IMG/VR virus record: IMGVR_UViG_3300029787_005267
Span: 1 to 22,931 of that record
Source of the DNA: a virus
Strand: one strand, 5' to 3'
Length of the DNA stretch: 22,931 nucleotides
Shown here: positions 5,829 through 22,906 of the stretch, in pieces
How positions within the stretch are numbered: position 1 is the stretch's first letter
Layout: the number at the start of each line of letters is the position of its first letter
Notes under the pieces: generated by a model
Database searches by the model: none
Told to the model about the DNA's origin: nothing
The model's input: only the letters and a program-made list of their open reading frames with translations
Translations under genes and position numbers: made by a program

Positions 5829-5830
5829 TT
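5810..5830 (-). repeat. Right arm of an inverted repeat flanking hsp20
   Basis: GTGTCCTAGC, three bases, GTTTTGTT. Read on the minus strand this is AACAAAAC-N3-GCTAGGACAC, matching the arm at 5292-5314 in 17 of 18 block positions. The blocks include a GC-rich decamer that is unusual for this AT-rich DNA. The arm overlaps the TAGTTTTG promoter candidate. Confidence 0.6.
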
Positions 5831-5848
5831 TGTATATTAACGTACAAA
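5829..5848 (+). promoter_or_regulatory. Short inverted repeat in the 5' leader of the 5863 gene
   Basis: TTTGTA and TACAAA form a perfect 6-bp inverted repeat around TATTAACG. It lies just after the promoter candidate, at the expected transcription start, so it could be an operator or a weak leader hairpin. Confidence 0.35.
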
Positions 5849-5862
5849 TAAATTAGTTATAT

Positions 5863-6183
5863 ATGGCAAGAAAACCTAAATCAATAACAACCATCTCGGA
5901 TCCTTTGTTAGACCCTTTTTATATCACTAAGGATGATGTCTGTTATACAGTAAACGAAAGAATTGAACCTAATAAAAACCACTTTAGATCTAAGGGTGGT
6001 GGTAAATCATATGCTAAACCACAGGGGTATTATCCTAACTTTGAACAAGCATTACAAAAAATAGCCCAGGAAAAGCTTCATACTAGAAAAAATTATGAAT
6101 CATTATCCTTATTTTTAGACGAATTTAAATCAATAAAATTAAATATTAAAAATTATACAGATGGAATTAGAAGCACTATTTAA
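5863..6183 (+). CDS. Small hypothetical protein upstream of groES
   Basis: A 106-residue protein I cannot assign. It has a conserved-looking core, DPFYITKDDVCYTVNERI (17-34), then a glycine/lysine-rich stretch (SKGGGKSY), GYYPNFEQALQKIAQEKL (55-72) and a helical lysine-rich end. There are no signal peptide or membrane segments. It is the first gene after the promoter candidate, and its 3' end overlaps the groES start by 23 bases, so its translation may influence that of groES. A regulatory or DNA-binding role is possible but not shown. The ATG at 5863 is the first in frame after the gap and has no Shine-Dalgarno sequence. Confidence 0.75.
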   Translation: MARKPKSITTISDPLLDPFYITKDDVCYTVNERIEPNKNHFRSKGGGKSYAKPQGYYPNFEQALQKIAQEKLHTRKNYESLSLFLDEFKSIKLNIKNYTDGIRSTI

Positions 6184-6538
6184 TGCCGTTATAGTTAAAC
6201 CCCAAGACACTGAGGAAACTACTTATGGCTCCATAATTGTACCTGACTTAGGTAAAGAAGTAAATGAAATAGGAGAAATTGTATCAGTTGGACCTGGTCA
6301 ATCTACTATTACAGGTGAATTAATACCTACTACTTTACAAGTAGGAGATATAGTAGTACTACCTACCCAAGGTTTTACTAAAATCCCATATGATGGGGAA
6401 GATTATTATGTTGGGCCTGAAAATCAAGTACTAGCAAAAATTAATAAAAGGTCAGACTTTAATGAAGCATTAAGTGAAACCTTAAAAAATATAAGTGAAG
6501 AAGAAATTAATAATTTAAAAGATATATCTAATGAGTAA
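6161..6538 (+). CDS. groES: GroES-like co-chaperonin
   Basis: A 125-residue GroES homologue. The N-terminal ALFNAVIVKP (5-14) matches the RPLHDRVIVKR start of bacterial GroES. The mobile loop that docks onto GroEL follows, with the hydrophobic tripeptide IIV in GSIIVPDLGKE (23-33), then GEIVSVGPG, VGDIVVLP and the closing beta strand (VLAKI). GroES caps the GroEL ring and times ATP-driven folding. It is about 28 residues longer than the usual 97: residues after 96 form a polar, acidic helical tail (SDFNEALSETLKNISEEEIN) not seen in host GroES. It begins inside the preceding gene and overlaps groEL by 8 bases, so the two are probably made together. T4 gp31 has the same role but is much more diverged. 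Confidence 0.9.
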   Translation: MELEALFNAVIVKPQDTEETTYGSIIVPDLGKEVNEIGEIVSVGPGQSTITGELIPTTLQVGDIVVLPTQGFTKIPYDGEDYYVGPENQVLAKINKRSDFNEALSETLKNISEEEINNLKDISNE

Positions 6539-8150
6539 ACAAGTAGAATTTGGCTCTGAAGCTAGAAATAATTTAGTTAGAGGTATAGATACATTAGCTG
6601 ATGCTGTAGTATCTACATTAGGACCTAATGGAAGAAATGTTGTAATATCTAATAGTGATGGACCCCAATCTACTAAAGATGGTGTCACAGTAGCTAAGTC
6701 TATTAGTCTAAAGGATCCTAATCAAGAATTAGGAATTCAGTTAGTAAAACAAGCAGCTATTAAAACTGCAGAAAAAGCAGGTGATGGTACAACTACATCT
6801 ACTTTATTAGCTCGAGAAATGATTAAAGCTGGTCTTAATGCTTTAAATAATAATGAAAATGCTGTTGAAATTAAAAGAGATATAGATAAAACAGTTAAAT
6901 CTGTAGTACACAATTTAAGAACTAATCTATCAGAGGATATATCTGGTGAAAAACAGTTAGAACAAATTGCTACAATATCATCTAATAATGATAAAGAAAC
7001 AGGTAAATTAGTAGCTACTGCTATAGAAAAAGTAGGAATGGAGGGGGTTGTCCACATTGAAGAATCCCGTACTGGTGAAACATATTTAGAAACTGTTGAA
7101 GGGTTACAGTTTGAAAGAGGTTATAAGTCACCATATTTCGTTACGGATAATAATAGTATGACTGCCGTCTTAGAGAGCCCCCTCATTCTTATTACTGAAC
7201 ATAAATTAACTAAAGTAAAAGAACTATTGCCCGTTTTAGAAGCTGTATCAGCTCAGGCTAAATCCTTACTAATAATAGCTGAAGATATAGATCAGGAAGC
7301 TTTAGCTACTTTAGTAGTAAATAAGATGAGAGGTACCATGCAAGTTTGTGCTGTTAAGGCACCTGATTTTGGTGATAGAAGAAAATTAATTCTTGAAGAC
7401 ATTGCTATAACTACTGGAGGTCAAGTTTTTAGTAGAGAAAAAGGAATGAAATTAGATAAATTTAGTTGGGAGTGGTTTGGTGAAGCTAGAACTGTTACAG
7501 TAGAAAAAGAACAAACTACTATTGTTGATGGTAAGGGTGAAGTTGAGGTAATAGAAAAAAGAATTGAGGAATTACAAACACAAATAGATAAATCTAATAC
7601 TCCTTTTGAAGTAGAAAAACTACAAGAAAGACTAGCTAAATTTGTTGGTGGGGTAGCTATTATTCATGTTGGTGGAAATACTGAAACTGAAATGAAAGAG
7701 AAAAAAGATAGAGTAGATGATGCATTACATGCAACTAAAGCTGCTATTGAAGAAGGAATAGTACCAGGAGGTGGTACAGCACTATTATATGCTTCATCAG
7801 GTTTAGAAGGTAAAACTACTGGAGCACAAATTGTAATTCAATCATGTGCTAAACCTTTTAATCAAATTTTGGTTAATGCAGGTTGGGATGAAGTTGATGG
7901 TAGAATTATGGCTGATAATTTAGTTAATTCTGGTAATGATACATGGACTGGATTTGATATTAAAACGGGGAAAAAAACTAATATGAAAAAAGCAGGTATT
8001 ATTGATCCTACTAAAGTAGCTAGGTTAGCATTAGAAAATGCAGCTTCTATTGCAGGTACAGTTTTATTAACTGAATGTACTGTAGTAGATGAACCCCAAG
8101 ATGATGATAAAAAACCACAAATAGATCCATCAATGATGGGGATGATGTAA
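6531..8150 (+). CDS. groEL: GroEL chaperonin (Hsp60), full length
   Basis: A full-length 539-residue group I chaperonin, which folds proteins inside a double-ring chamber using ATP. The nucleotide site is intact: LGPNGRN (30-36), D50 in [14 protein letters not shown] (85-89) and the catalytic D397 in VDDALHAT. The substrate- and GroES-binding face is preserved: Y198, Y202 and F203 in GYKSPYF. GIVPGGG and the C-terminal equatorial part are also normal. The tail is short (DPSMMGMM), instead of the repeated GGM of most hosts. Its N-terminal third departs from host GroEL in many surface positions, suggesting long residence in phages rather than recent capture. It overlaps groES by 8 bases. No Shine-Dalgarno sequence is seen. 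Confidence 0.97.
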
Positions 8151-10000: not shown

Positions 10001-10224
10001 AATTAAAAGTATACAATTTTTTAAAATCCGAAGCTGAAGCGGATAAAAATAAGGCTTTAGCGAGTATAGAATTATTAACTAACCATCCTGCTGGAATTGG
10101 TGATCATTCAACTAAAGACTATTGGGATAACTGTAACGAGGCTCTTAGGTTGCTAGCTTCATCTGAAGAAAGATTAGAGATATTAGAAAAATATTTTCAA
10201 CCTAAAGGACAAGTTAATGGGTGA
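9997..10224 (+). CDS. Small conserved-looking hypothetical protein
   Basis: A 75-residue helical protein, acidic and without membrane segments. The centre, NHPAGIGDHSTKDYWDNCNE (29-48), resembles a motif I remember from other small phage proteins of unknown role (hPxGIGDHst), but I cannot attach a function. It is chained to gp62 by an ATGA overlap and overlaps the next gene by 8 bases. Confidence 0.7.
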   Translation: MKLKVYNFLKSEAEADKNKALASIELLTNHPAGIGDHSTKDYWDNCNEALRLLASSEERLEILEKYFQPKGQVNG

Positions 10225-10633
10225 TAGTATAAGTAAATATCACGAATTAATTAGTGAAGAAGAATTTGATAAGTTAGTTAATAAGGGGACCAAAGTGAGT
10301 AAAGCAGTAAAAATATTTGAAAACGAATACCCAGAATTATCCGAGGAATATAAAAGGATTTCTGAAGAAATGTATGAAATGTTTGCCCGCAAACATATGG
10401 ATTATGGTTTAAATAATATTGCTTTAGGAGGTGATTTAAAAAACCCCGAAGATAAAAAATTTTCACTAACTGGTCTTTGTATTAGACTCACTGATAAAAT
10501 TTCTAGACTAAAAAATCTTCTTATTAATGGCAAAAATTATGTTAAAGGAGAAGGAATGGAGGACACGTTTATTGATATAGCTAATTATGGAATTATTGGC
10601 TTATTAGTAGGACGTGATAAATGGAAAAAATAA
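10217..10633 (+). CDS. DUF1599 / MazG-like helical protein
   Basis: A 138-residue helical protein of the DUF1599 type. Diagnostic parts are KHMDYGLNNIALGG, then LCIRLTDKISRLKNLL and the acidic EDTFIDIANYGIIGLL near the C-terminus. The EDxxxDxANY pattern resembles the metal-binding helix of MazG-like nucleoside triphosphate pyrophosphohydrolases. DUF1599 proteins are frequent in phages and have been linked by others to nucleotide or DNA-base modification; that link is from memory. A role in clearing or altering nucleotide pools is an inference. It is preceded by AAAGGACAAG, one of the few purine-rich sequences before a start in this window. Confidence 0.75.
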   Translation: MGDSISKYHELISEEEFDKLVNKGTKVSKAVKIFENEYPELSEEYKRISEEMYEMFARKHMDYGLNNIALGGDLKNPEDKKFSLTGLCIRLTDKISRLKNLLINGKNYVKGEGMEDTFIDIANYGIIGLLVGRDKWKK

Positions 10634-11848: not shown

Positions 11849-13285
11849 ATGAAAGAACACTTTAAGTACATCCCTCAAAATAAGAGGAAAAAAATATTAT
11901 TAATCTGTGATGATATTAGAGTACACTCAGGCATAGCTACTGTAACTAAAGAGATTGTTGTACACACAGCACAACATTTTAATTGGATACAAATGGCTGG
12001 AGCTATTAACCACCCAGAAAAAGGTAAAGTATTTACTTTGGATCAAGAAATTAATAATTTAACTGGATTAAAAGATGCTTCTTGTAAATTATATCCTGTA
12101 GATGGGTATGGTAGTCCAGATATTTTAAGAGCTACAATTAGATCAGAAAAACCTGATGCTATAATGCTTGTTACTGATCCTAGATATTTCACTTGGGTAT
12201 TTAATATGGAGTCTGAAATTAGGAAAAATATACCTATTACATATTTAAATATTTGGGATGATTATCCTGCACCAATGTATAATAGAGCATTTTATGAAGC
12301 CTGTGATTTACTAATGGGTATCTCTAAACAAACAGTAAATATAAATAAGTTAGTATTAAAAGACTGTAATAAACCAAGATTATTTGAATATGTACCTCAT
12401 GGTTTAAATTCAAATATTTATAAACCTTTACCTGAGGATAATCCCGAATTGTTAAAAATGTATAATGAAACCTTTCCTAATGGAACTGATTTTGTTTTGT
12501 ATTTTAATTCTAGAAATATTAGAAGAAAACAAATACCAGATTCTTTATTAGCGTTTAGAGCATTTTTAGACTCTTTACCTATTGAAAAAGCTAAAAGGTG
12601 CTATTTTGTTTTACATACAGAATTATCTCATGAAGCAGGTACTAATTTATTAAAGGTAAAAGAATATCTATTTGATGAAAAATACCCAGATCAAATTAAA
12701 TTTTCATTAACTAAAATGACCCAGGAACAACTTAATTGTCTTTATAATATAGCTGATGCTCAAATTTTATTAACTTCTAATGAAGGTTGGGGTTTAACTA
12801 TTACTGAAGCTATGTTAGCTGGTACTCCTATAATTGCCAATGTAACTGGTGGTATGCAAGATCAAATGAGGTTTGTAGACGATAAAGGCGAATGGTTTAC
12901 TCCAGATGATAAAATACCTTCTAATCATAGAGGTACATTTAAAGAACATGGTGAATGGGCTTTCCCAGTTTACCCTTCTTCTAGATCTGTTCAGGGTTCA
13001 CCTCCTACCCCTTATATATTTGATGATAGGTGTAGATGGGAAGATGCTGTAGAACAAATTAAAAAATTATATAAATTAGGTAGAAAAAAAAGAAAAGAAT
13101 TAGGATTAAAAGGTAGGGAATGGGCTCTATCTGATGAAGCAGGATTTACTTCTAAACATCAAGCTGAAAGAGTAATAAATATTTTTGATGAATTATTTGA
13201 CACTTGGAAACCTAAAGAAAAGTACGAAATCATTAATGCTACTGAATATAAAGGTAGATTGTTAAACCATGAATTAATATACTAA
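11849..13285 (+). CDS. Glycosyltransferase, GT4-type (GT-B fold)
   Basis: A 478-residue glycosyltransferase with the two-domain GT-B fold. The N-terminal acceptor domain begins with KILLICDDIRVHSGIA (19-34), a Rossmann strand plus glycine loop. The C-terminal donor domain has the E-x7-E motif EGWGLTITE (E312, E320) and GTPII, diagnostic of GT4 retaining enzymes that use nucleotide-activated sugars. It has no signal peptide or membrane anchor, so it works in the host cytoplasm. It begins the long glycan chain and overlaps the next glycosyltransferase by TAATG. An insertion around residues 345-395 (proline- and serine-rich) is not part of the common core. The upstream AGGA is one of the few Shine-Dalgarno-like sequences here. 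Substrates unknown. Confidence 0.9.
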   Translation: MKEHFKYIPQNKRKKILLICDDIRVHSGIATVTKEIVVHTAQHFNWIQMAGAINHPEKGKVFTLDQEINNLTGLKDASCKLYPVDGYGSPDILRATIRSEKPDAIMLVTDPRYFTWVFNMESEIRKNIPITYLNIWDDYPAPMYNRAFYEACDLLMGISKQTVNINKLVLKDCNKPRLFEYVPHGLNSNIYKPLPEDNPELLKMYNETFPNGTDFVLYFNSRNIRRKQIPDSLLAFRAFLDSLPIEKAKRCYFVLHTELSHEAGTNLLKVKEYLFDEKYPDQIKFSLTKMTQEQLNCLYNIADAQILLTSNEGWGLTITEAMLAGTPIIANVTGGMQDQMRFVDDKGEWFTPDDKIPSNHRGTFKEHGEWAFPVYPSSRSVQGSPPTPYIFDDRCRWEDAVEQIKKLYKLGRKKRKELGLKGREWALSDEAGFTSKHQAERVINIFDELFDTWKPKEKYEIINATEYKGRLLNHELIY

Positions 13286-14604
13286 TGAATAAACCAAGAT
13301 TTGTAATTTCTTGCCCATTTGATACCTACTCAGGTTATGGTGCAAGATCAAGAGATATAATTAAAGCTATAATTGAATTAGATAAATATAAAGTTGAACT
13401 ACTTTCACAAAGATGGGGTGAAACTTCATGGGGATTTTGTAATGATAATCCTGAATGGAAATTCTTATTAAATTATGCAGTAGCACCTAATTGGCAAAGT
13501 ACTAAACCAGATATTTGGATGCAAATAACTATCCCTAATGAATTTGCTCCTGTTGGAAAGTATAATATTGGTTGTACAGCTGGTATTGAATCTACTGCTT
13601 GCCCTGCAGAATGGGTTGAAGGTTTAAATAGAATGAATATAAATTGGGTATCATCAAAACATAGTAAAAATGTATTTGAGGGTATGCAATATGAAAAGAA
13701 AGATAAAAATACTAATCAAACTATCGAAGTAATTAAAAATACTAAACCTATACATGTAGTATTTGAAGGTGTTAATTTAAATAAATATAAACCTATATTT
13801 CCTTCGGAAATTAAATCTGTTAAATTAGATGAAATTAAAGATCACTGGTGTTATCTTTTTGTAGGGCATTGGATGCAAGGTGAGTTAGGACATGATAGAA
13901 AGAATGTAGGTTTGATGATTAGAACTTTTTTTGAAACATTTAAGGATAAAAAGAAAAAACCAGCTTTAATTTTAAAAACTTCTGTTGGAGTGGATTCTTA
14001 TATTAGTAGAGATGAAGTATTAGATAGAATTAAAGGTATTAGACAACAAGTTAAATCTAAAGATTTACCTAATATTTACTTATTAAGTGGTAATTTTAGT
14101 GATGAAGAAATGAATGAATTGTATAATAATAAAAAAATTAAATCTATGATTAGTTTTACTAAAGGTGAGGGTTATGGTAGACCTTTATTAGAATTTAGTT
14201 TAACTGGTAAACCTATTATAGCTTCAGGTTGGTCAGGTCAGGTTGATTTTTTAAATAAAAACTTTTCTATTTTAGTAGGTGGTCAATTAGAAAGTGTACA
14301 CAGTTCTGCTGCTAATAAGTGGTTAATAAAGGAAAGCCAATGGTTTAAACCGGATTTAAACCACATAAATCATTATTTACAAGATGTATTTAATAGATAT
14401 AATTTTTATAAATTAAATTCTAAACAACAAAGTAAATTTTCTAAAGGTAAGTTTAGTTTTGATAAAATGAAAGAACTTTTAGATAATATATTAGATGCTA
14501 ATTTACCTAAATTTGCTGAACAGGTTAGTCTAAAATTACCTAAGTTAAAAAAGGCTAAACCTGAATTACCTAAGTTACAGTTACCTAAATTAAAAAAAGT
14601 ATAA
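13285..14604 (+). CDS. Glycosyltransferase, GT4-type, with LPK-repeat tail
   Basis: A 439-residue GT-B enzyme. Its N-terminal part contains SGYGARSRDIIKAI (16-29) as the acceptor-domain glycine loop. The donor domain has E-x7-E as EGYGRPLLE (E295, E303), followed by GKPII. It is related in layout to the preceding glycosyltransferase but clearly diverged, so this is an old duplication or two separate gains. The last 35 residues are a low-complexity basic tail of LPK units (LPKF, LPKLKK, LPKLQ, LPKLKK), encoded by repeated TTACCTAA. The tail may bind an acidic polymer or membrane, which is speculative. It overlaps its upstream neighbour by TAATG. Confidence 0.88.
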   Translation: MNKPRFVISCPFDTYSGYGARSRDIIKAIIELDKYKVELLSQRWGETSWGFCNDNPEWKFLLNYAVAPNWQSTKPDIWMQITIPNEFAPVGKYNIGCTAGIESTACPAEWVEGLNRMNINWVSSKHSKNVFEGMQYEKKDKNTNQTIEVIKNTKPIHVVFEGVNLNKYKPIFPSEIKSVKLDEIKDHWCYLFVGHWMQGELGHDRKNVGLMIRTFFETFKDKKKKPALILKTSVGVDSYISRDEVLDRIKGIRQQVKSKDLPNIYLLSGNFSDEEMNELYNNKKIKSMISFTKGEGYGRPLLEFSLTGKPIIASGWSGQVDFLNKNFSILVGGQLESVHSSAANKWLIKESQWFKPDLNHINHYLQDVFNRYNFYKLNSKQQSKFSKGKFSFDKMKELLDNILDANLPKFAEQVSLKLPKLKKAKPELPKLQLPKLKKV

Positions 14605-14605
14605 T

Positions 14606-15046
14606 ATGCAACACGATGAAATAATAAATTGTCCTAAATCTGGAGGTGATTTATGTTATAAAATTGAAGTAAATAAAGATATTACTAATTATTATAGTTT
14701 ATCCTGTGGGTTTTGGACTAATAGTTTAATGAAAAAAGATAGTGAGTTTTATAATGAACAGATGCAACTATTACCTGAGTTATATAAAGATTTAGCCTGG
14801 GAAGACCCAGAAACTGAGTTAATTTGGTTACCTCATACCATAAATGATTCTATTAATGGTATGGTTTATGCTGCTGGTACAGATAAAGATAATTGGCAAT
14901 GGGCAGCAGTTAAAACTATAGAATTACCTGAAGAGGAAAAAGAACGTTTTAAAACAACACATAAAGCGGATATGAGCACAATAACATATTATCCAGAACG
15001 TGATTATATGGATGCTCTTTCGTATATTGGTGTATTACCTGAATAA
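14606..15046 (+). CDS. Conserved-looking phage hypothetical protein
   Basis: A 146-residue soluble protein. Striking parts are CPKSGGDLCYK (9-19), YYSLSCGFWTNSLM (29-42), LPELYKDLAWEDPET (56-70) and WLPHTIN. I recall near-identical patterns in hypothetical proteins of cyanophages and other marine T4-like phages, but with no known function. C9, C17 and C34 do not form a clear zinc site. The composition (many Trp, Tyr, acidic residues) looks structural or binding rather than catalytic. It lies between glycosyltransferases but may be a separate phage core gene rather than a glycan enzyme. Confidence 0.75.
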   Translation: MQHDEIINCPKSGGDLCYKIEVNKDITNYYSLSCGFWTNSLMKKDSEFYNEQMQLLPELYKDLAWEDPETELIWLPHTINDSINGMVYAAGTDKDNWQWAAVKTIELPEEEKERFKTTHKADMSTITYYPERDYMDALSYIGVLPE

Positions 15047-15047
15047 T

Positions 15048-15671
15048 ATGAAAATAAGTTATGCAATTACAGTTTGTAATGAATTAAACGAAATTACTAA
15101 ATTAATAAATTTTCTTTTAGATAAAAAAAGAATAGATGATGAGATAGTAATTCTATTTGATAAAAAAAATGGAATACCTGAAGTTTGGAGTTTATTATCT
15201 GAACTTAAAGGTGAACCTAATGTTTCTTATCATGCTGCTTCATTTAAAAATCATTTTGCAGATTGGAAAAACCATTTAACTAGTCTTTGTAGTGGAGATT
15301 ATATATTCCAAATAGATGCAGATGAAATTCCAAATGAACAGTTATTAATCAACTTACCTCATATTTTAAAAGATAACTCTAATTGTGAAGTTTATTTAGT
15401 TTCTAGAGTTAATACTGTTAAAGGTATGACCCAAGAACATATTAAAGAATGGCATTGGAATGTAAATGAAGAAGGATGGGTTAATTGGCCTGATCCTCAA
15501 TGGAGAATATATAAAAATAAACCCGAAATAAAATGGAAAAATAAAGTCCATGAAAAATTAGAGGGATATGATTCCTGGGCCTTTTTACCTCATGAAGAAG
15601 AATATGCCCTTTATCATCATAAAGATATAAAACGACAAGAAAAACAAAATAAATATTATGCAACACTCTAA
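15048..15671 (+). CDS. Glycosyltransferase, GT2-type (GT-A fold)
   Basis: A 207-residue GT2-family enzyme. The start MKISYAITVCNELNEI is the classical GT2 opening, a strand followed by NE. The nucleotide-sugar and metal site is QIDADEIP, whose DAD matches DxD. The acceptor part has the tryptophan-rich WHWNVNEEGWVNWPDPQWR and HEKLEG, typical of GT2 enzymes. An in-frame ATG at 15000 would add 16 hydrophobic residues inside the preceding gene. I chose 15048 because the family pattern begins exactly there and it follows the upstream stop by one base. It overlaps the next gene by 14 bases. It is short for GT2, so only the catalytic domain is present. Donor and acceptor unknown. Confidence 0.85.
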   Translation: MKISYAITVCNELNEITKLINFLLDKKRIDDEIVILFDKKNGIPEVWSLLSELKGEPNVSYHAASFKNHFADWKNHLTSLCSGDYIFQIDADEIPNEQLLINLPHILKDNSNCEVYLVSRVNTVKGMTQEHIKEWHWNVNEEGWVNWPDPQWRIYKNKPEIKWKNKVHEKLEGYDSWAFLPHEEEYALYHHKDIKRQEKQNKYYATL

Positions 15672-16815
15672 AAAAATATGGTATGCTCCCTATAAATTTG
15701 AATCATATGGGGAGGAAGAAATTAAAGCAGTAGAAGAATCATTAAGATCAGGTTGGTTAGGAGGACAAGGACCAAAATGTATTGAATTTGAAAAACAAAT
15801 AGCTAAACGATTTGGTAAAAAATATGGCGTATTTGTTAATTCGGGTTCATCAGCTTGTTTATTATCTATAGCGGCCTTAGATTTACCTAAAGGTAGTAAA
15901 ATCATTACTCCTGCTTGTACTTTTGCTACTACCTTAGCTCCCATTATTCAATTAGGTTTCATTCCTATATTTGTAGATGTTGGATTAAATGATTATGTTG
16001 CTAACATAGAAGATGTTATTAATGCTATAGATGATGAAGTTAAAGCCATTATGTTACCTAATTTAATAGGTAATAAACCTGATTGGGATTTATTAAAAGC
16101 TGGTTTAGATTTAATTGACAGAGATGACATTTACTTAATAGAGGATTCAGCGGATACTATTACTGAAACTAATATTACTGATGTTTCAACAACTAGTTTT
16201 TATGCCTCACATGTTATTACTGCTGGTGGTGTAGGAGGTATGGTAATGTTTAATGATAAAAAACATGTAACCAAATGTTTACAATATAGAGATTGGGGTA
16301 GATTAGGTGATGACTCCGAAATTATGGATGATAGATTTAACCATTCAGTAGATGGTATAGCTTATGATCACAAATTTTTATACAGCGTATTAGGTTACCA
16401 TATGAAAGCATGTGAGATGAACGCAGCATTTGGGCTTGTACAATTAGATAGATTTAAAAAATTTGAAAAAATAAGAAGAGCTAATGTTGAAAGATATTTA
16501 GAATTATTAGATGGTGTTGGTGATTTAATCTTACCTGATGATAAAATTAAACCTAATTGGTTAGCTATACCTTTACAAACTGAACGTAGATTTGAATTAT
16601 TAACATTTTTAGAAGATAATAATGTACAAACTAGAGTTACATTTGCTGGAAATGTTACTAGACATCCTGTATATAGAGAATATTTACAAGATTTCAAAAA
16701 CTCTGATATAATAATGAAGAATGGATTTTTATTAGGTGCTCATCATGGAATGACTATAGATGATGTTGAACATGTATGTGGTTTAATTAAAATTTTCTTT
16801 AATAAAGATAAATGA
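15658..16815 (+). CDS. DegT-family PLP/PMP sugar enzyme with histidine at the lysine position (dehydratase-like)
   Basis: A 385-residue DegT/DnrJ/EryC1-fold protein. SGSSACLLS (62-70), the EDSAD motif with D163 and the closing RDWGR region are typical. The residue that normally is the PLP-binding lysine is H185, in SFYASHVITAGG. The same Lys-to-His change defines sugar 3-dehydratases: ColD (GDP-4-keto-6-deoxymannose to the 3,6-dideoxy sugar) and the E1 enzyme RfbH. The part YDHKFLYSVLGYHMK resembles RfbH, but the RfbH iron-sulphur cysteines just after RDWGR are absent (RDWGRLGDDSEIMDDRF), as in ColD. It probably removes the C3 oxygen of a nucleotide 4-keto sugar. An RmlD-like reductase is encoded next, overlapping by ATGA. 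Transamination is unlikely without the lysine. Substrate unknown. Confidence 0.87.
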   Translation: MQHSKKIWYAPYKFESYGEEEIKAVEESLRSGWLGGQGPKCIEFEKQIAKRFGKKYGVFVNSGSSACLLSIAALDLPKGSKIITPACTFATTLAPIIQLGFIPIFVDVGLNDYVANIEDVINAIDDEVKAIMLPNLIGNKPDWDLLKAGLDLIDRDDIYLIEDSADTITETNITDVSTTSFYASHVITAGGVGGMVMFNDKKHVTKCLQYRDWGRLGDDSEIMDDRFNHSVDGIAYDHKFLYSVLGYHMKACEMNAAFGLVQLDRFKKFEKIRRANVERYLELLDGVGDLILPDDKIKPNWLAIPLQTERRFELLTFLEDNNVQTRVTFAGNVTRHPVYREYLQDFKNSDIIMKNGFLLGAHHGMTIDDVEHVCGLIKIFFNKDK

Positions 16816-17489
16816 AAGTACTAATTTTTGGTGATGGTTTATTAGGTAAGGAACTAGCGGATAAAACTGGTTGGGATGTTGTATCTAGAAAAACTACAGG
16901 TTTAGATATAACAGATTATGATTCTATAGATAATTTAGTTTCTAAATATGATACCATAGTAAATTGCATTGCCAATACAGATACTTATTCCGAAGATAGA
17001 ATAGAGCATATGAAAGTAAATTATGAATTTGTTGCTACATTAGCTGATATGGTTGAATTTCATGATAAAGTTTTAGTGCAAATATCTACTGAATTTGTAT
17101 ATGCCTTTAATAAAAAACCTGCTAATGAAATAGATTTACCTTTACCTGCTCATAATTGGTATTCTTATAGTAAATTACTTGCAGATGAATATATTAAAGT
17201 AACTGTTCCAAAACATTTAATTTGTAGAACTTTATTTAAACCCATAGATTTTAGTCCTGAAGAAGTTTGGGATGTAAAAACAACAGGAGATAAAGTAGAT
17301 AAAATAGCTGATTTAATTATAGATTTAATTAAAAAACAAGCTCAGGGTGTGTATAATGTTGGAACTGGAAAGAAAAAATTATATAAATTGGCTCCTAAAG
17401 GTACACCTGTTATTAAGGCACCTAAATATGTACCAACAGATACTACTATGGATTTAACTGATCTAAATGAAATAATAGGATTAGATTAA
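16812..17489 (+). CDS. RmlD-like nucleotide-sugar reductase (extended SDR)
   Basis: A 225-residue short-chain dehydrogenase/reductase of the RmlD type. The Rossmann motif is FGDGLLGKE (6-14), the middle has QISTEFVY, and the catalytic pair is Y117 and K121 in YSYSKLLADEY. The C-terminal part has NVGTGKK. RmlD-like enzymes reduce 4-keto groups of dTDP-, GDP- or CDP-sugars using NADPH. It is shorter than RmlD (about 290 residues), with a reduced substrate domain. It directly follows the DegT-type dehydratase, a plausible next step after 3-deoxygenation. Overlaps at both ends (ATGA, TAATG) place it firmly in this chain. Confidence 0.85.
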   Translation: MKVLIFGDGLLGKELADKTGWDVVSRKTTGLDITDYDSIDNLVSKYDTIVNCIANTDTYSEDRIEHMKVNYEFVATLADMVEFHDKVLVQISTEFVYAFNKKPANEIDLPLPAHNWYSYSKLLADEYIKVTVPKHLICRTLFKPIDFSPEEVWDVKTTGDKVDKIADLIIDLIKKQAQGVYNVGTGKKKLYKLAPKGTPVIKAPKYVPTDTTMDLTDLNEIIGLD

Positions 17490-17791
17490 TGAATATATTT
17501 GTAGACATAGATGAGACTATTTGCCATTATGAAGATAAAAGAGAATATCATTTAGCAGTCCCCTCTAAATGGGCAATAAATAAAATTAATGATTTATATG
17601 ATAAAGGAAATACAATTACTTACTGGACAGCTAGAGGATCTGTTTATAAAGATAGAAGGGATGAATATTATAAATTAACTAAAAAACAACTTAAAAAATG
17701 GGGATGTAAGTACCATTATTTAAGTGTTGGAGAAAAACCTGCATATGATTTATTAATATGCGATAAATCTAAAACAATATACCAAATATGA
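17489..17791 (+). CDS. Minimal HAD-family phosphatase
   Basis: A 100-residue HAD-fold hydrolase without a cap domain. The nucleophile motif is FVDIDETIC (D6, D8), motif II is T47 in WTARG, motif III is K83 and the acidic end is D87 and D92 (YDLLICD). It is about half the length of common HAD phosphatases and resembles the small ones in capsule and LPS clusters. A likely role is dephosphorylating a sugar phosphate, for example before the sialic acid steps downstream, but the substrate cannot be read. Overlaps at both ends (TAATG, ATGA). Confidence 0.85.
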   Translation: MNIFVDIDETICHYEDKREYHLAVPSKWAINKINDLYDKGNTITYWTARGSVYKDRRDEYYKLTKKQLKKWGCKYHYLSVGEKPAYDLLICDKSKTIYQI

Positions 17792-18489
17792 AACAAGAAA
17801 TATTAGAAAATTTAGCCACCACAGGAATATGTGTAATTGAAGATTATTACGATAAAGAATTTTGTGAACAAGCAGTAAAAGATATAGAAGATGGGTTAGT
17901 TAAATACCCAGATAAAGTACAATCCGAATCTAAAGAAGGCACATCAGGTGATTTTAGGCTATTTAAAATGGAGAATAGATATGATACAGCCAAAAAATTT
18001 GCTAATGATGAATTATTATTATCTACTGTATCTGAATATTTTGGTTATCCCCTATTAAGTCATTTTGTATTAGGTGGTAAAGTTACTTATAATCCTAATC
18101 AACAAACTAATAGTGGAGGTGGTTGGCATAGAGATAATAGAGCTAAACAAGTTAAAACTTTAGTTTATCTATCAGATGTTTCGGAAGAAAATGGTCCTTA
18201 TTTATTCTTACCTAACTCTGATAAGTTTGATTTGCCTACTAGAGATGGTATTGGTAAAGTTACTAGATATGAAGATAAAGTAATTAATGAATTTTGTAAA
18301 GAAAATAATTTTCAACCATTTAGAGTAGCAGGTAAAGCAGGAACAGTTATATTTTCAGATACTTCATTTATACATAGAGGTGCTAATATTAATTCTGGTA
18401 CTAGATATACTTACACTAATTATTATTTTGAAAACCACCCTCAAAGAATTGCTATAACTGAAAATGATTGGGGTAAAAGTTTTATTTAA
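17788..18489 (+). CDS. PhyH-type 2OG-Fe(II) dioxygenase
   Basis: A 233-residue dioxygenase of the phytanoyl-CoA hydroxylase family. The iron triad is H114-x-D116 in GGGWHRDNR and H196 in SFIHRGAN; R206 is the likely 2-oxoglutarate ligand. VYLSDVSEENGPYLFLPNS (126-144) matches the conserved core. PhyH-type enzymes in glycan clusters hydroxylate sugars, lipids or small molecules. Here it is framed by a HAD phosphatase and a glycosyltransferase, so hydroxylation of a sugar or a carrier is a reasonable guess. This is the second oxygenase in the window; the one at 4580 is only distantly related. Confidence 0.85.
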   Translation: MKQEILENLATTGICVIEDYYDKEFCEQAVKDIEDGLVKYPDKVQSESKEGTSGDFRLFKMENRYDTAKKFANDELLLSTVSEYFGYPLLSHFVLGGKVTYNPNQQTNSGGGWHRDNRAKQVKTLVYLSDVSEENGPYLFLPNSDKFDLPTRDGIGKVTRYEDKVINEFCKENNFQPFRVAGKAGTVIFSDTSFIHRGANINSGTRYTYTNYYFENHPQRIAITENDWGKSFI

Positions 18490-19550
18490 TGGCTCATATT
18501 TTTAAACAACCAACTAATACTAATAAAGGTATTATAGTATTTACACATAAGGAATGGCCTTGGTTATTTCAAAATGCTGTGGAACTTATCCAGGGATTAA
18601 AACAACATTTTTTCTTAGGTTGGAATCAAGGAATATTTTTTGGTAATATAGGACAAATGTCTCCCTTAGTTGATTTTACTTTTGCTAGTCCATCCGCTTT
18701 AGATTATCAAGATAATGGGCATACTTTAAAAATAGAATTAATGGATAGAAATTTTCTAACTGATGATTATAAAGATTTAGGTATAGCACATAAACATTAT
18801 GATATTATCTGTATTAGTAGAGTAGTAAAATGGAAAAATGTTCCTTCATTATTAAAGGCACTAAGAAAACTTTACGATAAAAATAAAAAATACAAGACAT
18901 TACTAATAATCCCAAAACCAGAAAATGAAACTGTAGAACATTTTGATACTGATATAGTTAAACAATATGAGGAAATGTTTGATTATGAAGAAAGAAAAAA
19001 TATTACATTATTAAGGTTATCCAGTGAATTAGGATTTTTAGGAATGTCACCACAAACTATTAACTGGTTATATAATAATTCTAAAGTTTTATATATTGGT
19101 TCTAAATCTGAAGGTGGGTGTAGAGTAACACATGAAGCTTTACTTTGTGGTTGTGATATAGTTTATTACAAACAACATCAAGGTCCTATGGTTGATTATT
19201 TAAATGCTTCTAATAGTATACCTTTTGATGATTATGATAGTATAGATATTGCACTAGAAAGAGCGGTTAGTTCTTATTCTTATACTAAAACAAGAATTAA
19301 TAAATATGAAAAATTATTAAGTGAAAGATATGCTAAAGAAAAACTAATACCTCATTTTAATAAGTTATATGAAAAGCATAATATGAAGTTTGATGGCCAA
19401 CTAATCAATTGTGATAATTTATCAAATAGACTGCCAGCACATTATTTAGATGTTCCTTGGAATCACCCTACTGAACCTACTGCAGATATTAAATCAAATG
19501 AACAATTAAATAAATTTATAACTTATATTAACAATGAAAATAATAGATAA
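18489..19550 (+). CDS. Glycosyltransferase, GT4-type
   Basis: A 353-residue glycosyltransferase. The donor domain has CISRVVKWKNVPSLLKAL (113-130) and E-x7-E as EGGCRVTHE (E208, E216), followed by LLCGCDIV, all typical of GT4. The N-terminal acceptor half is short and hardly recognisable, so the usual first Rossmann domain is reduced. The C-terminal 70 residues (helical, ending PTEPTADIKSNEQLNKF) are extra to the family. It overlaps the dioxygenase by TAATG and the methyltransferase by 17 bases. Donor and acceptor unknown. Confidence 0.8.
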   Translation: MAHIFKQPTNTNKGIIVFTHKEWPWLFQNAVELIQGLKQHFFLGWNQGIFFGNIGQMSPLVDFTFASPSALDYQDNGHTLKIELMDRNFLTDDYKDLGIAHKHYDIICISRVVKWKNVPSLLKALRKLYDKNKKYKTLLIIPKPENETVEHFDTDIVKQYEEMFDYEERKNITLLRLSSELGFLGMSPQTINWLYNNSKVLYIGSKSEGGCRVTHEALLCGCDIVYYKQHQGPMVDYLNASNSIPFDDYDSIDIALERAVSSYSYTKTRINKYEKLLSERYAKEKLIPHFNKLYEKHNMKFDGQLINCDNLSNRLPAHYLDVPWNHPTEPTADIKSNEQLNKFITYINNENNR

Positions 19551-20127
19551 GGAAAAAGAAAAGTATCAAAAAGTACATACTGATGATTATCAATACGGTT
19601 TAGGTATGAGACAAGTTTATGATTTAATGAATGAAAATTTTGATTTCTCAAAAAGATTTAATGATTTAGCTAAACAGTCTAAAACATCTTTAGATATTGC
19701 TTGTGGTGGAGGTACAGTAATGGATTATATAGATGGTTTGGGTTGTAAACCTAGTGGAATAGACATCAGTGAGGCAGCTATAGAAAAGGTTGATGATAAA
19801 TTTGAATCTAAAGTAGCTTATAGTCATGAATTACCTTTTGAAGATAATACATTTGACTTAGTATATTTTCTAGATGGTATGGAACATATCCCAGGGGGAG
19901 ATATAGAAGAACAATCAATAAGAGAAGCTTTTAGAGTAGCAAGTAAATATGTTTGTCATGGTATTGCTCTAGGGGATAGTTTTAGAGAAGGAACACAACT
20001 TCATATAAATCAAAAATCTGCTGAAAGTTGGAAGGATATAATAGGAAAAATAGCAAGTGAACTTGGATGGACTGAGGATTTGTATTATCTTAGAAATAAT
20101 ACTGTGTATTTAATTTATTTAAAATGA
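19534..20127 (+). CDS. Class I SAM-dependent methyltransferase
   Basis: A 197-residue methyltransferase. Motif I is LDIACGGGT (about 53-61), the acidic ribose-binding residue is in GIDIS, and LPFEDNTFDLVYFLDGMEH carries motifs II and III. The nearest general relatives are small-molecule and sugar methyltransferases of the UbiE/Methyltransf_11 type. It may O-methylate a sugar made by this cluster. It overlaps the glycosyltransferase before it by 17 bases and joins NeuB by ATGA. No DNA-binding domain, so DNA methylation is unlikely. Confidence 0.9.
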   Translation: MKIIDKEKEKYQKVHTDDYQYGLGMRQVYDLMNENFDFSKRFNDLAKQSKTSLDIACGGGTVMDYIDGLGCKPSGIDISEAAIEKVDDKFESKVAYSHELPFEDNTFDLVYFLDGMEHIPGGDIEEQSIREAFRVASKYVCHGIALGDSFREGTQLHINQKSAESWKDIIGKIASELGWTEDLYYLRNNTVYLIYLK

Positions 20128-20942
20128 GTGTAAAAATAATAGCCGAAATAGGTATTAACCATAATGGAGACATTAATACCTGTAAATATTTAATTGATGC
20201 AGCTGTTTTAGCTGGTTGTGATTATGTTAAATTCCAAAAACGTAATCCTGATATTTGTGTCCCAGAGGAACAAAAATCTAAAATTAAGTCTACTCCTTGG
20301 GGTGAAATGACTTATTTAGAATACAAACATAAAATAGAATTTGGAAAAGAAGAATATGATATAATAGATGAGTATTGTAAAGTAAGAAAAATAAAATGGT
20401 TTGCATCAGTATGGGATAAGGATTCTGTAGATTTTATGGCTAATTATGTAGATATAGCTAAAATACCATCAGCTCTAATTACTGACAATGAATTAACTAA
20501 ATATGCTAGAGATAAATTTAAAAAACTAATAATATCTACTGGCATGTCTACTCAAAAACAAATTGACGAATGTGAAAGAAATTGTATGCCTGATGTTATA
20601 ATGCATACTAATTCTACTTATCCTTCTCCTATAGAAGAATTAAATTTAGGTTATATTAGTTATCTTAAAAAGAAATTTTGGGATTTAGATATAGGCTATA
20701 GTGGCCATGAATATGGTTTAGTTACTACATTTGCTACTGTACCTTTAGGTGTTAATTGGATAGAAAGACATATAACATTAGATAGAACTATGTGGGGTTC
20801 AGATCAATTAGCATCTATTGAACCAGCGGGATTATTTAAATTAGTTAAAGGTATTAGAGATATAGAAAGTTGCCTAGGCGGAAATGAAGATAGAACTATA
20901 TTACCTAGTGAGAAGATGAAATTAAAATCTCTTAGAAAATAA
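20124..20942 (+). CDS. neuB: Sialic acid synthase NeuB-like, without SAF domain
   Basis: A 272-residue NeuB-family synthase, which condenses phosphoenolpyruvate with N-acetylmannosamine (or a related amino sugar, as in PseI and LegI) to give a nonulosonic acid. The TIM barrel is complete: AEIGINHNGD (7-16), VKFQ, ISTGMST, HTNSTYPSP and IGYSGHEYG all match. The protein stops at DRTILPSEKMKLKSLR, where usual NeuBs (about 345 residues) continue into the antifreeze-like SAF domain. In the Neisseria enzyme that domain supplies an arginine to the partner active site, so substrate handling may differ. The stop overlaps the next start (TAATG), and no reading frame for the SAF domain is nearby. NeuA follows at once, which fixes the pathway as CMP-nonulosonate formation. 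NeuC is not in the window. Confidence 0.92.
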   Translation: MSVKIIAEIGINHNGDINTCKYLIDAAVLAGCDYVKFQKRNPDICVPEEQKSKIKSTPWGEMTYLEYKHKIEFGKEEYDIIDEYCKVRKIKWFASVWDKDSVDFMANYVDIAKIPSALITDNELTKYARDKFKKLIISTGMSTQKQIDECERNCMPDVIMHTNSTYPSPIEELNLGYISYLKKKFWDLDIGYSGHEYGLVTTFATVPLGVNWIERHITLDRTMWGSDQLASIEPAGLFKLVKGIRDIESCLGGNEDRTILPSEKMKLKSLRK

Positions 20943-21589
20943 TGATAGCAGTATTACCTATTAGGTGTGGTTCAAAGGGAATTAAAGATAAAAATATTAG
21001 GCATATTGCAGGTAAGCCTTTATTTTATTGGACAATTAATTCCTTAGTAAAGTCTAATGTAGATAGAATTATTGTAGCTACTGATTTACCTTATGTTGAT
21101 TATATTACTGCTTATAATTTCCCTAAAGTAGATGTTTATGTAAGGGATCCTAAAAACTCTAGAGATGAATCATCAACTGAAGATGTTTTATTAGAATTAA
21201 TAGATAAATGGAAATTAAATGATGATATATTATTAGCCCAAGCTACATCTCCTTTAACTACTAGTGAGGATTATAATAAAGGAATAACTATGTATTCTAA
21301 TTATGATAGTATTGTTTCTGTAGTTAGGCAAAAAAGATTTATTTGGGATGATAATGGTTATCCTTCTAATTATAATCTATTTGATAGACCCAGAAGACAA
21401 GATTTTAAGGGTTATTTAGTGGAAAATGGTGCGTTTTATATTAATAATTCTAAATATATAAAAGGATACAAAAATAGAGTATCAGGCAAAATTGGTTTAT
21501 GTGAAATGAATGAAAGTACCTATTTTGAATTGGATACTGAAGAAGATTTTAAAGTTATAGAAAATTTATTATATGAAATTCGAGATTGA
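20942..21589 (+). CDS. neuA: CMP-sialic acid synthetase (NeuA-like)
   Basis: A 215-residue cytidylyltransferase of the NeuA family, which activates sialic acid with CTP to form CMP-sialic acid. The nucleotide-binding signature is LPIRCGSKGIKDKNI (5-19), a variant of IPARGGSKGIKNKN. LLAQATSPLTTSEDY and ENGAFYI further on are also typical. The length fits the catalytic domain alone (about 220 residues). It lies between NeuB and a GT29 sialyltransferase, giving synthesis, activation and transfer in consecutive genes. Related nonulosonate activators (PseF, LegF) cannot be excluded. Confidence 0.92.
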   Translation: MIAVLPIRCGSKGIKDKNIRHIAGKPLFYWTINSLVKSNVDRIIVATDLPYVDYITAYNFPKVDVYVRDPKNSRDESSTEDVLLELIDKWKLNDDILLAQATSPLTTSEDYNKGITMYSNYDSIVSVVRQKRFIWDDNGYPSNYNLFDRPRRQDFKGYLVENGAFYINNSKYIKGYKNRVSGKIGLCEMNESTYFELDTEEDFKVIENLLYEIRD

Positions 21590-22238
21590 GGGACAAAAAC
21601 ATAATTTATTATTAAATTATGATGCCAAAATATTAAATTTATTTGTTAATAAATCTGTTGCTATAGTAGGTAGTAGTGGTATTTTGCTAAATAAAGAATA
21701 TGGTAAATTAATTGATTCTTTTGATATAATAGTTAGGTTTAATGTAGCTAGAGTAAAAGGATTTGAAAAACATGTGGGTTCTAGAACTGATGTAAGATTT
21801 TTTAACGGTCATGCATTTTCAGGTACATCTGATCCAAAAAGATTTCTAGGTAATGATCCTAATTTTGTATCTAATTTAAAGAAAGAAATATTAATAGTTA
21901 AATCCTGGAATGAAAGAGAGTTTATGTTAGGTACTATAAAAACAACACCTCAAAATACAGCATTATTTTTGAATCCTCATTTTACTAACTATTGTAACCA
22001 ATTAACGGGAGGAGAAGCTACTTGTGGTTTATTAGGTGTTATTTTTATGACTTTATTTTCTAAAAATATTTCATGTTTTGGTTTTAATCATTATAAAGAT
22101 GATCTTAAATCCATTCATTATTGGGAAGAAATACAAGATGCAGAAAATTGGAAAACTGGTCAAAGCCATGGTTGGAACAATGAAGAACAATTATTTCAAC
22201 AATATATAGATAATAAAATAATTAAAATGCATAGATAA
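21573..22238 (+). CDS. GT29-type sialyltransferase (eukaryote-like sialylmotifs)
   Basis: A 221-residue protein whose first third matches the large sialylmotif of GT29 enzymes: VAIVGSSG (29-36), YGKLIDSFDIIVRFNVA (43-59) and GFEKHVGSRTD (63-73). The small sialylmotif corresponds to about 147-171 (GEATCGLLGV to CFGF), and HYWEE (182-186) corresponds to the last sialylmotif with its catalytic-type histidine. GT29 transfers sialic acid from CMP-sialic acid to glycans, and the two genes just before make that donor. The first cysteine of the usual L-motif (CAVVGNSG) is valine here, so the disulfide of vertebrate enzymes is absent. There is no membrane anchor, which fits a cytoplasmic enzyme. It overlaps neuA by 17 bases. 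Acceptor unknown. Confidence 0.85.
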   Translation: MKFEIEGQKHNLLLNYDAKILNLFVNKSVAIVGSSGILLNKEYGKLIDSFDIIVRFNVARVKGFEKHVGSRTDVRFFNGHAFSGTSDPKRFLGNDPNFVSNLKKEILIVKSWNEREFMLGTIKTTPQNTALFLNPHFTNYCNQLTGGEATCGLLGVIFMTLFSKNISCFGFNHYKDDLKSIHYWEEIQDAENWKTGQSHGWNNEEQLFQQYIDNKIIKMHR

Positions 22239-22906
22239 TGAATTTAACTATTGCTATTGATGATGTTAATCCATTAAAGGATTGGAGGATATTAGGTGAT
22301 ATAACTGAAAAATATTTATTTGATTTAAATAAAAAATTTGGAGCTAAATTTACATTATTTATACCTTCTAATTATCATAATGAAGCACCTATATCAGAAC
22401 ATAAAGAGTGGATAAATGAATTAAATAATAGTGGTATATTTGAATTAGCTGCTCATGGACATTTTCATCAAACAATAAACCCAGAACGCTTTGGCGAATG
22501 TGAATTTTATGAATTAGCTGGTGATGAAATAATAGAACATAGAATTAATTTAATGCTAGAGGAATGGGATAAAGTAGGAATTAAACCTAAAGGATGGAGA
22601 AATCCAGGTTGGTTATGTAGTTGGAGAGCGAGCGAATTATTAAGTAAACATTTTGATTGGGCTGCTTTACATTATGAACATAATAGAGGATTAATATGGA
22701 ATGGATGTAAAGAAATATTTGGTTCAGATGGTATACATAAAAATGATATTACTCTACATAGTGAAAGAGTAATGTTACACTCTCATATTTTTGGAGATTG
22801 GAATGATAATGTCTGGAATGAGGATAATTATAAACAAGCTAATTTAAGTTTAGAATTTCTTTGTAAATATCATGATATTGAATTTAAAACTATGAGTGAA
22901 TTATGA
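22238..22906 (+). CDS. Polysaccharide deacetylase-like protein (NodB/CE4-like)
   Basis: A 222-residue protein with the pattern of polysaccharide deacetylases. The start MNLTIAIDDVNP carries the DD metal/catalytic pair (D8, D9). ELAAHGHFHQT gives the H-x3-H metal site, GWRNPGWLCSW gives the RxPG-like motif 3, and MLHSHIFGDW near the end gives the last histidine. Such enzymes remove N- or O-acetyl groups from sugars. It follows the sialyltransferase by a TAATG overlap, so it could trim acetyl groups from the same glycan or precursor. No signal peptide, so it acts in the cytoplasm. The family is diverged and the substrate is uncertain. Confidence 0.75.
   Translation: MNLTIAIDDVNPLKDWRILGDITEKYLFDLNKKFGAKFTLFIPSNYHNEAPISEHKEWINELNNSGIFELAAHGHFHQTINPERFGECEFYELAGDEIIEHRINLMLEEWDKVGIKPKGWRNPGWLCSWRASELLSKHFDWAALHYEHNRGLIWNGCKEIFGSDGIHKNDITLHSERVMLHSHIFGDWNDNVWNEDNYKQANLSLEFLCKYHDIEFKTMSEL

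Follow-up and report, generated by a model that had tools for sequence, protein, structure and literature searches.

A chain of 14 glycan genes lies between positions 11849 and 22906 of the IMG/VR virus contig IMGVR_UViG_3300029787_005267 (24,172 bases, record G000 in the comparisons), with neighbouring genes overlapping or standing one base apart. The whole stretch analysed, here called the window, comprises bases 1-22931 of this contig, has a G+C content of 25-34% per kilobase and carries every named gene on the + strand. Four genes close the chain within the window, encoding a NeuB-family ulosonate synthase, a NeuA-like cytidine monophosphate (CMP)-sugar synthetase, a GT29 sialyltransferase-family enzyme and a DUF2334 protein. 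A preliminary description of this DNA had reported these four as one overlapping chain (20124-22906), with glycosyltransferases, a methyltransferase and a phosphatase upstream; all four open reading frames (ORFs) were confirmed with Pfam matches over cut-off, and profile matches in the same chain bore out the upstream genes. The gene families, their order and the division of the locus into conserved and exchanged parts come directly out of the computation. The genes are listed here with E-values of matches and protein identities; 'frame' marks the conserved part of the locus, immuto is a Flavobacterium phage, and loci on other contigs carry L numbers.

11849..13285, + strand: GT4a glycosyltransferase, frame (PF00534 1.6e-12; 50.5% to immuto gp181; in 80/80 GT4b loci surveyed)
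13285..14604, + strand: GT4b glycosyltransferase, frame (phrog_2170 glycosyltransferase 1.2e-17; 51% to immuto gp180)
14606..15046, + strand: 146-residue protein, frame (41% to immuto gp179; no Pfam match; another protein instead in L118 and L120)
15000..15671, + strand: GT2 glycosyltransferase, frame, preceding the variable cassette (PF00535 5.6e-8; 57% to immuto gp178); the real start probably lies inside this ORF
15658..16815, + strand: DegT-family protein (PF01041 2.8e-65; His at the expected pyridoxal phosphate lysine; SFYASHVITAGG from residue 180)
16812..17489, + strand: RmlD-like NAD-dependent sugar reductase (PF04321 5.5e-18)
17489..17791, + strand: HAD small sugar phosphatase (phrog_1238 3.5e-21; profile against PDB 9iqw 2.6e-20)
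17788..18489, + strand: PhyH 2-oxoglutarate dioxygenase-like protein (PF05721 3.7e-9; 69.5% to PhyH of the L120 cassette)
18489..19550, + strand: GT4c glycosyltransferase (PF00534 1.6e-10; 60% to L120 GT4c)
19534..20127, + strand: S-adenosylmethionine-dependent methyltransferase (PF08241 5.8e-12)
20124..20942, + strand: NeuB-family ulosonate synthase without SAF domain, 272 residues (PF03102 1.8e-61)
20942..21589, + strand: CMP-nonulosonate synthetase (NeuA-like), 215 residues (PF02348 9.5e-18)
21573..22238, + strand: GT29 sialyltransferase-family enzyme, 221 residues (PF00777 6.6e-27)
22238..22906, + strand: DUF2334 deacetylase-like protein, 222 residues (PF10096 1.2e-10)

The spacing is -4 from the methyltransferase gene to that of NeuB, and then -1, -17 and -1 through NeuA, GT29 and DUF2334. 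The arrangement is more than a chance one, since the gene order, leaving out the DegT-RmlD pair, recurs in two contigs, L116 (= L003) and L117 (= L005). The pair (15658-17489) forms an alignment gap against the collinear L116, with DNA identities of 72.4 and 73.4% on its two sides, and is also missing from L117; it is found again in the glycan loci of L253, L258, L259, L309 and L323. The best NCBIfam match of the DegT-family protein is PRK15407 RfbH (247.8 bits, under the cut-off of 423), and by its His-for-lysine replacement it is presumably an RfbH/ColD-like 3-dehydratase. A PHROGs search at E 0.01 assigned no family to NeuB, NeuA or GT29 of the window.

The surroundings of the module were surveyed in IMG/VR through GT4b, which matched at least 599 stretches, at least 596 of them relatives, the best 80 being kept. 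Among these 80 loci GT4a is always present. GT2 is found in 55/55 loci that extend 1.5 kb or more downstream; in some of them an epimerase-like gene is inserted before it, and in L323 a DegT-RmlD pair. A further glycosyltransferase, GT2end, was seen in 12 of the 34 loci for which 4 kb or more of downstream DNA is available. Gene content varies between GT2 and GT2end, the top Pfam families of 54 ORFs from 11 loci being Epimerase (11), RmlD (9), GDP_Man_Dehyd (8), Polysacc_synt_2 (7) and DegT (6), with overlapping counts. Beyond the window, the record continues with another putative glycosyltransferase, distantly similar to immuto gp173, and with a GT2-like ORF truncated by the record end.

The same frame is present in an isolate with a complete genome, Flavobacterium phage immuto (NC_055915, gp181-gp169), where GT4a, GT4b, the 146-residue protein, GT2 and GT2end follow one another in the order of the window with protein identities of 41-57% (GT2end over 122 residues), and where, as in the window, GroES/GroEL and a PD-(D/E)XK protein lie upstream of the glycan locus. 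The cassette of immuto differs, consisting of aminotransferases, a methyltransferase, a pilin-glycosylation-like protein and an epimerase; no immuto gene is annotated as NeuB, NeuA or GT29, and tblastn with the three proteins of the window gave no match. By sequence comparison, the window phage is thus related to the immuto group at this locus, and the module is one exchangeable cassette inside a wider phage glycan locus.

Cassette exchange is most evident from a comparison of L118 and L120, the DNA of which is 93.2% identical over 2647 bp upstream through the end of GT2 and over 1128 bp directly downstream of GT29, and 84.9% identical over the next 6 kb downstream. Between these flanks only 155 bp of the GT29 gene align in DNA, the GT29 proteins being 45.5% identical. 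The L118 cassette contains HAD, a protein of the DHDPS family, KdsA (267 bits against PRK05198, cut-off 242, yet under the TIGR01362 cut-off), PhyH, further genes, a CMP-sugar synthetase and GT29. That of L120 contains PhyH, GT4c, a NeuB with SAF domain (389.7 bits, cut-off 399.65), NeuC (TIGR03568, 401 bits, cut-off 236), NeuA and GT29, the full predicted set for synthesis and attachment of N-acetylneuraminic acid (Neu5Ac). The window shares PhyH (69.5%), GT4c (60%) and GT29 (42.5%) with L120, but a short NeuB and HAD replace the NeuB-NeuC pair. By its predicted gene content, the window cassette is thus a third type, with a NeuB without SAF, no NeuC in the record and a sugar phosphatase, and L116 and L117 are of the same type. 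In L241, KdsA and a short NeuB are accompanied by two CMP-synthetase-like and three GT29-like frames. A DHDPS/NanA-superfamily protein stands right before KdsA in L118 (2939-3832), L119, L122, L130, L134, L136-L138, L146 and L240-L245.

From these comparisons a serotype-like system can be put forward, tentatively and with distinctly less than even confidence, in which a fixed glycosylation frame would serve hypervariable cassettes (Neu5Ac, ketodeoxyoctonate (Kdo)-type, ketodeoxynononate (Kdn)-type, deoxysugars) swapped whole among close relatives, and the particles of a single species would differ in their often acidic glycans as a result; L120 would then represent a virus with a complete de novo route that starts from UDP-N-acetylglucosamine and ends in a sialylated product.

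The NeuB protein of the window matches PF03102 with 208.1 bits (cut-off 22.1), and E8, K36, Q38, K113, T139, Y166, H195, H216, D227 and E263 are among the positions that do not vary across an alignment of 22 phage rows. Its best NCBIfam score is that of the N-acetylneuraminate synthase TIGR03569 (199 bits, cut-off 399.65), over the pseudaminic acid synthase TIGR03586 (150.8 bits, cut-off 340.25). The chain ends at SLRK, where a C-terminal SAF domain would be expected to start, and PF08666 has no match anywhere in G000. In Neisseria NeuB the SAF domain donates a substrate-binding residue. A PF02350 profile search found no NeuC in the record either. The samples for such record-wide searches were chosen by hand, with 32 records for SAF and NeuC, 17 for export, ThyA and Gp23 and 42 for the cupin discussed below. 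Among the 32 related records a PF02350 gene occurs in three (NeuC in L120, the non-hydrolysing WecB type in L051 and L065) and a SAF domain only in L120, so that the search for NeuC that the preliminary description had suggested came out negative for its own record and positive for one relative. Scans with the single L120 NeuC and full-length NeuB, which reach close relatives only, gave no contig besides L120.

NeuA matches PF02348 with 65.2 bits (cut-off 22.6) and the PseF profile TIGR03584 with 64.8 bits, below its cut-off of 205.7; its nearest PDB entries are 9t4z (PpNeuA, 1.6e-31) and 1qwj (CMP-Neu5Ac synthetase, 3.1e-23). The CMP-synthetase motif PNGA[LI]Y tracks the synthase, being present in 7/10 KdsA-linked and 0/65 short-NeuB-linked proteins. 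By these matches the product is predicted to be a nonulosonate, its identity as Neu5Ac not being established. Of the earlier proposal that the phage could make and attach a CMP-nonulosonate from an N-acetylmannosamine (ManNAc)-type precursor, the predicted synthesis, activation and transfer therefore stand, whereas the ManNAc route does not follow from a NeuB that lacks SAF and scores far under the Neu5Ac synthase cut-off; the chain also contains a sugar phosphatase, a hint at a phosphorylated route.

The phosphatase was modelled with a predicted local distance difference test score (pLDDT) of 91.9, and its top Foldseek match is 9iqw, the D-arabinose 1,5-diphosphate phosphatase AfhF of phage HY126 (2.2e-6). 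Within the frame, HAD was found in 7/7 cassettes with a short NeuB or KdsA and in 1/33 other loci that extend 4 kb or more downstream (Fisher 4e-7, the phages being related and the loci non-independent), and is absent from L120 in spite of the PhyH and GT4c that L120 has in common with the window. The 7/7 was counted by hand; L245, on the same contig as L119, was left out of the 33 non-ulosonate loci, the 4-kb cut excludes L249 and L260, both with HAD but less downstream DNA, and L250 (PhyH, GT4c, no HAD, at a contig end) is unclassifiable. The KdsA product is a phosphate and requires a phosphatase, so the simplest reading is that HAD removes it and that the short NeuB would also yield a phosphate. 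In three phages a long NeuB is fused to a C-terminal cupin/D-lyxose-isomerase-like domain (L132, 9314-10795; L142, 9153-10685; L154, 8612-10111), which would suit an aldose without acetamido group. In L145 (9168-11093; = L083, 7168-9093), a NeuB with SAF is fused to a xylose-isomerase-like TIM barrel.

A Kdn-type sugar made via a phosphate is thus possible, though doubtful, and the same may be said of the alternative that an unphosphorylated host sugar is turned by the SAF-less NeuB into Neu5Ac, or into a legionaminic or pseudaminic acid relative, with HAD serving another sugar; something else takes up the remaining chance. The best NCBIfam score, the resemblance of NeuA to CMP-Neu5Ac synthetases, the fact that HAD is not bound to ulosonate genes in general, and PDB entry 6ncs, a chain of 290 residues named N-acetylneuraminic acid synthetase that is too short for SAF (perhaps not the whole protein), speak for Neu5Ac or a relative of it, a solution compatible with any of the acceptors considered below. 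It is opposed by the distance of both NCBIfam scores from their equivalog cut-offs, by the lack of SAF and NeuC in the record, and by the presence of HAD in the frame with short NeuB or KdsA and its absence with NeuB-NeuC.

The GT29 assignment is firm (PF00777, 95 bits, cut-off 23). A profile built from 17 phage rows finds the mammalian alpha-2,3-sialyltransferase 2wml at 7.8e-32 and, weakly (6.5e-5), Campylobacter 1ro8, which we take to be CstII, a GT42 enzyme. Sialylmotifs L, S, III and VS, with names and roles taken from the accessible text of PMC10225777, were placed by eye at 33-76, 145-171, 182-185 and H199-E204, and H182, Y183, H199 and E204 are invariant across the 17 phage rows. The model (pLDDT 83.8; predicted template-modelling score 0.85) gave 30 Foldseek matches at E<=0.001, all 30 of them mammalian GT29 chains (best 1.9e-10). 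It superposes on 2wnf, of the GT-A variant sialyltransferase fold, with Z 17.8 and a root-mean-square deviation of 2.7 over 185 aligned residues, against Z 10.7 for 1ro8. The cysteines of the disulfide that joins motifs L and S in mammalian 2wnb align to Val29 and Ser163. Since phage GT29 genes accompany KdsA as well as NeuB, the donor may, judging from gene context, differ from CMP-sialic acid. In a quick tree the donor synthase type requires 9 changes; with 34 of 86 forks open, long branches and no eukaryotic rows, this tree is uninformative on the origin of phage GT29 (frames under 150 or over 420 residues and weak matches were dropped, and L001 and L002 left out).

The last protein of the chain matches PF10096 with 41.8 bits (cut-off 26) and Polysacc_deac_1 (PF01522) with 19.6 bits, below the cut-off of 23.1. 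It has IDD, HGHFH, RNPGW and LHSH stretches, which we assume to be metal-site motifs, and a PDB sequence search returned one polysaccharide deacetylase at E 0.15 as its sole match. The trimming that had been ascribed to it is unsupported, because DUF2334 is also found in cassettes without NeuB, namely L253 and L281 (whole cassette visible) and L258 (partly visible).

An IMG/VR pattern scan with NeuB gave 97 relatives and one with GT29 gave 173, the best 80 of each being kept. The viral NeuB proteins of the loci collected, including that of the window and two phage-collection records, amount to 84 distinct ones, 79 short and 5 long (judged by the last 200 residues, with pieces under 230 residues dropped and second, weaker NeuB-like proteins counted as short). 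The fetched stretch holds a NeuA-like gene for 65 of the 79 short ones, HAD for 60 and GT29 for 34. PF00777 is present in 20/52 records searched whole, which were picked from 83 loci (L003-L085) by omitting 31 by eye, mostly near-copies and short stretches, with no fixed rule. Among the best 80 of the 173 GT29 loci, near-copies included, 28 contain NeuB, NeuA and GT29, which answers the call for a neighbourhood search in other phages, and 38 contain neither NeuB nor NeuA. A search of annotated phages with NeuB brought up three records, namely LR756508, the single-cell record MH319754 and one from Moritella viscosa with 23.6% identity. The last of these is also the only NeuA match, and LR756508 the only GT29 match; no cultured phage with the trio was among these matches. 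The GT29 scan reached bacterial contigs as well, with Planctomycetota, Spirochaetota and Verrucomicrobiota among their labels, several being metagenome bins and possibly contaminated; 42 GT29-like loci on bacterial genome contigs (L196-L237) include many labelled outside Proteobacteria. The accessible text of PMC10225777 places GT29-related prokaryote sequences in Proteobacteria (23) and one archaeon.

As to the acceptor, families of initiation, export and polymerization or ligation were searched in the 17 records. PF02397, PF13440 and PF04932 are in 0/17 (9, 14 and 9 of 14 control genomes), other transporter families not having been searched and 16 of the records being of unknown completeness. 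Nor does the annotation of immuto list a flippase, a polymerase or a ligase, but it leaves many genes as hypothetical and gives the label LptF permease to a gene of 336 bases. These results mildly favour an acceptor in the cytoplasm, for instance a protein of the virion, and count against the view that phage glycosyltransferases extend a lipid-linked glycan or lipopolysaccharide (LPS) of the host, which host transporters export so that the altered surface excludes competitors or hides the infected cell. That view is unlikely, but it can point to a gene content like that of O-antigen and capsule sugar cassettes, to the action of GT29 and NeuA on surface glycans elsewhere, to cassette swapping, which is typical of surface antigens (O-antigen loci), and to the possibility that the host provides the families missing from these perhaps incomplete records.

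The reading that we prefer, at somewhat short of an even chance, is that of an ulosonate version of the exchangeable glycan locus, in which a SAF-less NeuB-HAD-NeuA-GT29 route would supply a cytoplasmic, probably virion-protein, acceptor with a changeable acidic coat. From sequence, models and gene context we infer its substrate, order of steps, acceptor and benefit as follows. The frame glycosyltransferases GT4a, GT4b, GT2 and GT2end are predicted to assemble a short oligosaccharide, for which the cassette between the frame genes would provide strain-specific sugars. The SAF-less NeuB would join phosphoenolpyruvate to a sugar, most likely a phosphorylated, non-acetylated hexose (Kdn-type), HAD would take off the phosphate, NeuA would form the CMP-sugar and GT29 would attach it, while GT4c, the methyltransferase, PhyH and DUF2334 may add or modify further residues. 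The acceptor would most likely be a cytoplasmic protein, probably of the virion, leading to a particle with a changeable acidic coat.

Several observations weigh against this reading. The comparisons gave no direct sign of the acceptor, and of the 17 records in which export functions were looked for, 16 are IMG/VR contigs of unknown completeness, immuto alone being complete and annotated and lacking NeuB. The ulosonate cassette is rare, as it was seen in 1/34 GT4b loci that extend 4 kb or more downstream (among the best 80), and the L120 cassette is known from one contig, possibly misassembled. The NeuB of L145 has SAF yet no NeuC was seen with it. Phages commonly carry members of the HAD family (376 records), the nearest solved relative of the window protein has D-arabinose 1,5-diphosphate as its substrate, and Kdn 9-phosphate and Kdo 8-phosphate phosphatases match it only at E 0.03-0.16 (0.03-0.12 for the former). 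Outside the frame HAD is often absent: among all 22 KdsA loci, near-copies included, it is in the fetched stretch of 10 and not of 12, which slightly lowered the estimate for a Kdn-type phosphate, and of the 60 distinct short NeuBs with HAD in their stretch, 22 have it within 100 bp. The notion of HAD as a specific Kdn 9-phosphate phosphatase is retained as a conjecture only, in view of the fold search, which points to another sugar phosphatase, of the wide occurrence of HAD and of the 12 KdsA loci without it. Abandoned was a supply of mannose 6-phosphate to NeuB by the upstream cupin (2100-2579; TIGR01479-like, under cut-off), such isomerase cupins being unlinked to NeuB (PF01050 over cut-off in 5/42 records).

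Decoration of phage DNA bases by the glycosyltransferases, as a protection against host nucleases, is quite improbable. The locus does sit among replication genes and close to a DUF1599 (nucleotide modification associated) protein at 10217-10633, and the nearest solved HAD structure is the phosphatase of phage HY126, which we connect with arabinosylated DNA. However, the thymidylate-synthase-family proteins of three relatives exceed the ThyA cut-off (TIGR03284), so that DNA glycosylation via a deoxycytidine monophosphate hydroxymethylase was dropped, and immuto has an annotated ThyA, with 7-deazaguanine genes instead. No thymidylate-synthase-family protein is found in 13/17 records, G000 included, most of them possibly incomplete, and a CMP-nonulosonate pathway with many sugars per locus would be unusual for DNA. 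More improbable still is that the genes are passengers, a host polysaccharide block recently acquired and functionless for the phage: their presence is patchy, as the above 1/34 indicates, but the ORFs are intact and overlapping, key residues are conserved across divergent phages, and two relatives retain the chain with a DNA identity of about 73%.

The left part of the window contains T4-like replication genes (a split polymerase and clamp loader subunits) and GroEL. The family B DNA polymerase is split into two ORFs (295-2103 and 2844-3779), between which lie the mannose-6-phosphate-isomerase-type cupin (2100-2579) and an 87-residue ORF. A heat-shock-like small ORF, a GroES-like ORF and GroEL occupy 5370-8150, with identities to the immuto proteins of 45% for GroES and 60.6% for GroEL, the nearest relative of the latter. 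Shine-Dalgarno-like 4-mers precede 3/30 window starts against 11/88 internal ATGs, with 5/49 starts in immuto and 15/34 in cyanophage Mel-JY01. The GroEL relationship and the starts poor in such 4-mers, as in immuto, suggest a Bacteroidota host; against it, the polymerase is matched best, in coverage and identity, by Microcystis phage Mel-JY01 (32.5%), which also has the frame genes GT4b (45%) and GT2 (36%). According to the accessible text of PMC11348598, a 14-phage group of immuto_3-5A and relatives has genomes of 155-190 kb and a regular polymerase of family A, B or C, and the family B polymerase of the window would fit this description. A Gp23 capsid gene was found in 2/17 records (immuto and G051) and not in G000, a 24-kb fragment.

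Among known systems, the closest in composition is the vertebrate-type pathway (NANS, NANP, CMAS and GT29, as given in the accessible text of PMC10225777), which likewise combines a synthase, a phosphatase, a CMAS-like synthetase and GT29, the latter with the same fold and sialylmotifs. The phage differs in its operon, the NeuB without SAF, a HAD nearest to another small family (AfhF) and Val29/Ser163 in place of the cysteines. With bacterial NeuC-NeuB-NeuA clusters the phage shares the adjoining NeuB and NeuA, and L120 also NeuC, but the phage uses GT29 and the window lacks NeuC and SAF. The best-known bacterial sialyltransferases belong to GT42, GT52 or GT80. The uncultured jumbo phage LR756508 also carries NeuB (54.6%), HAD, NeuA-like and GT29 genes, in a 484-kb genome with other surroundings and unannotated; its region 306769-339581 (L084) has five GT29 frames around one NeuB, and the record seven profile matches, some being parts of one frame. 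Phage glycosylation is known mainly as one or a few transferases, and LPS gene clusters are known from marine cyanophages. In mycobacteriophages glycans are found on capsid and tail tube proteins (Freeman et al. 2023 as cited in PMC12619734), the accessible text of the citing paper mentioning no ulosonate or exchangeable sugar-synthesis cassette. The statement that no phage system of such composition had been described held up in a full-text literature search covering few subscription papers, which recognised no description of phage-coded nonulosonate synthesis or of a phage GT29, the terms being likewise absent from the accessible text of PMC7824862.

Whole predicted ulosonate pathways are thus exchanged at a single site in phages, together with transferases from the family to which the animal sialyltransferases belong. 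If the glycan is on virions, their coat would be changeable and could determine how they adsorb, how other organisms recognise them and how phages compete; with immuto and its Flavobacterium host, an isolate is already available in which the frame can be tested. The many GT29 genes placed in phages and diverse bacteria also bear on the origin of animal sialyltransferases.

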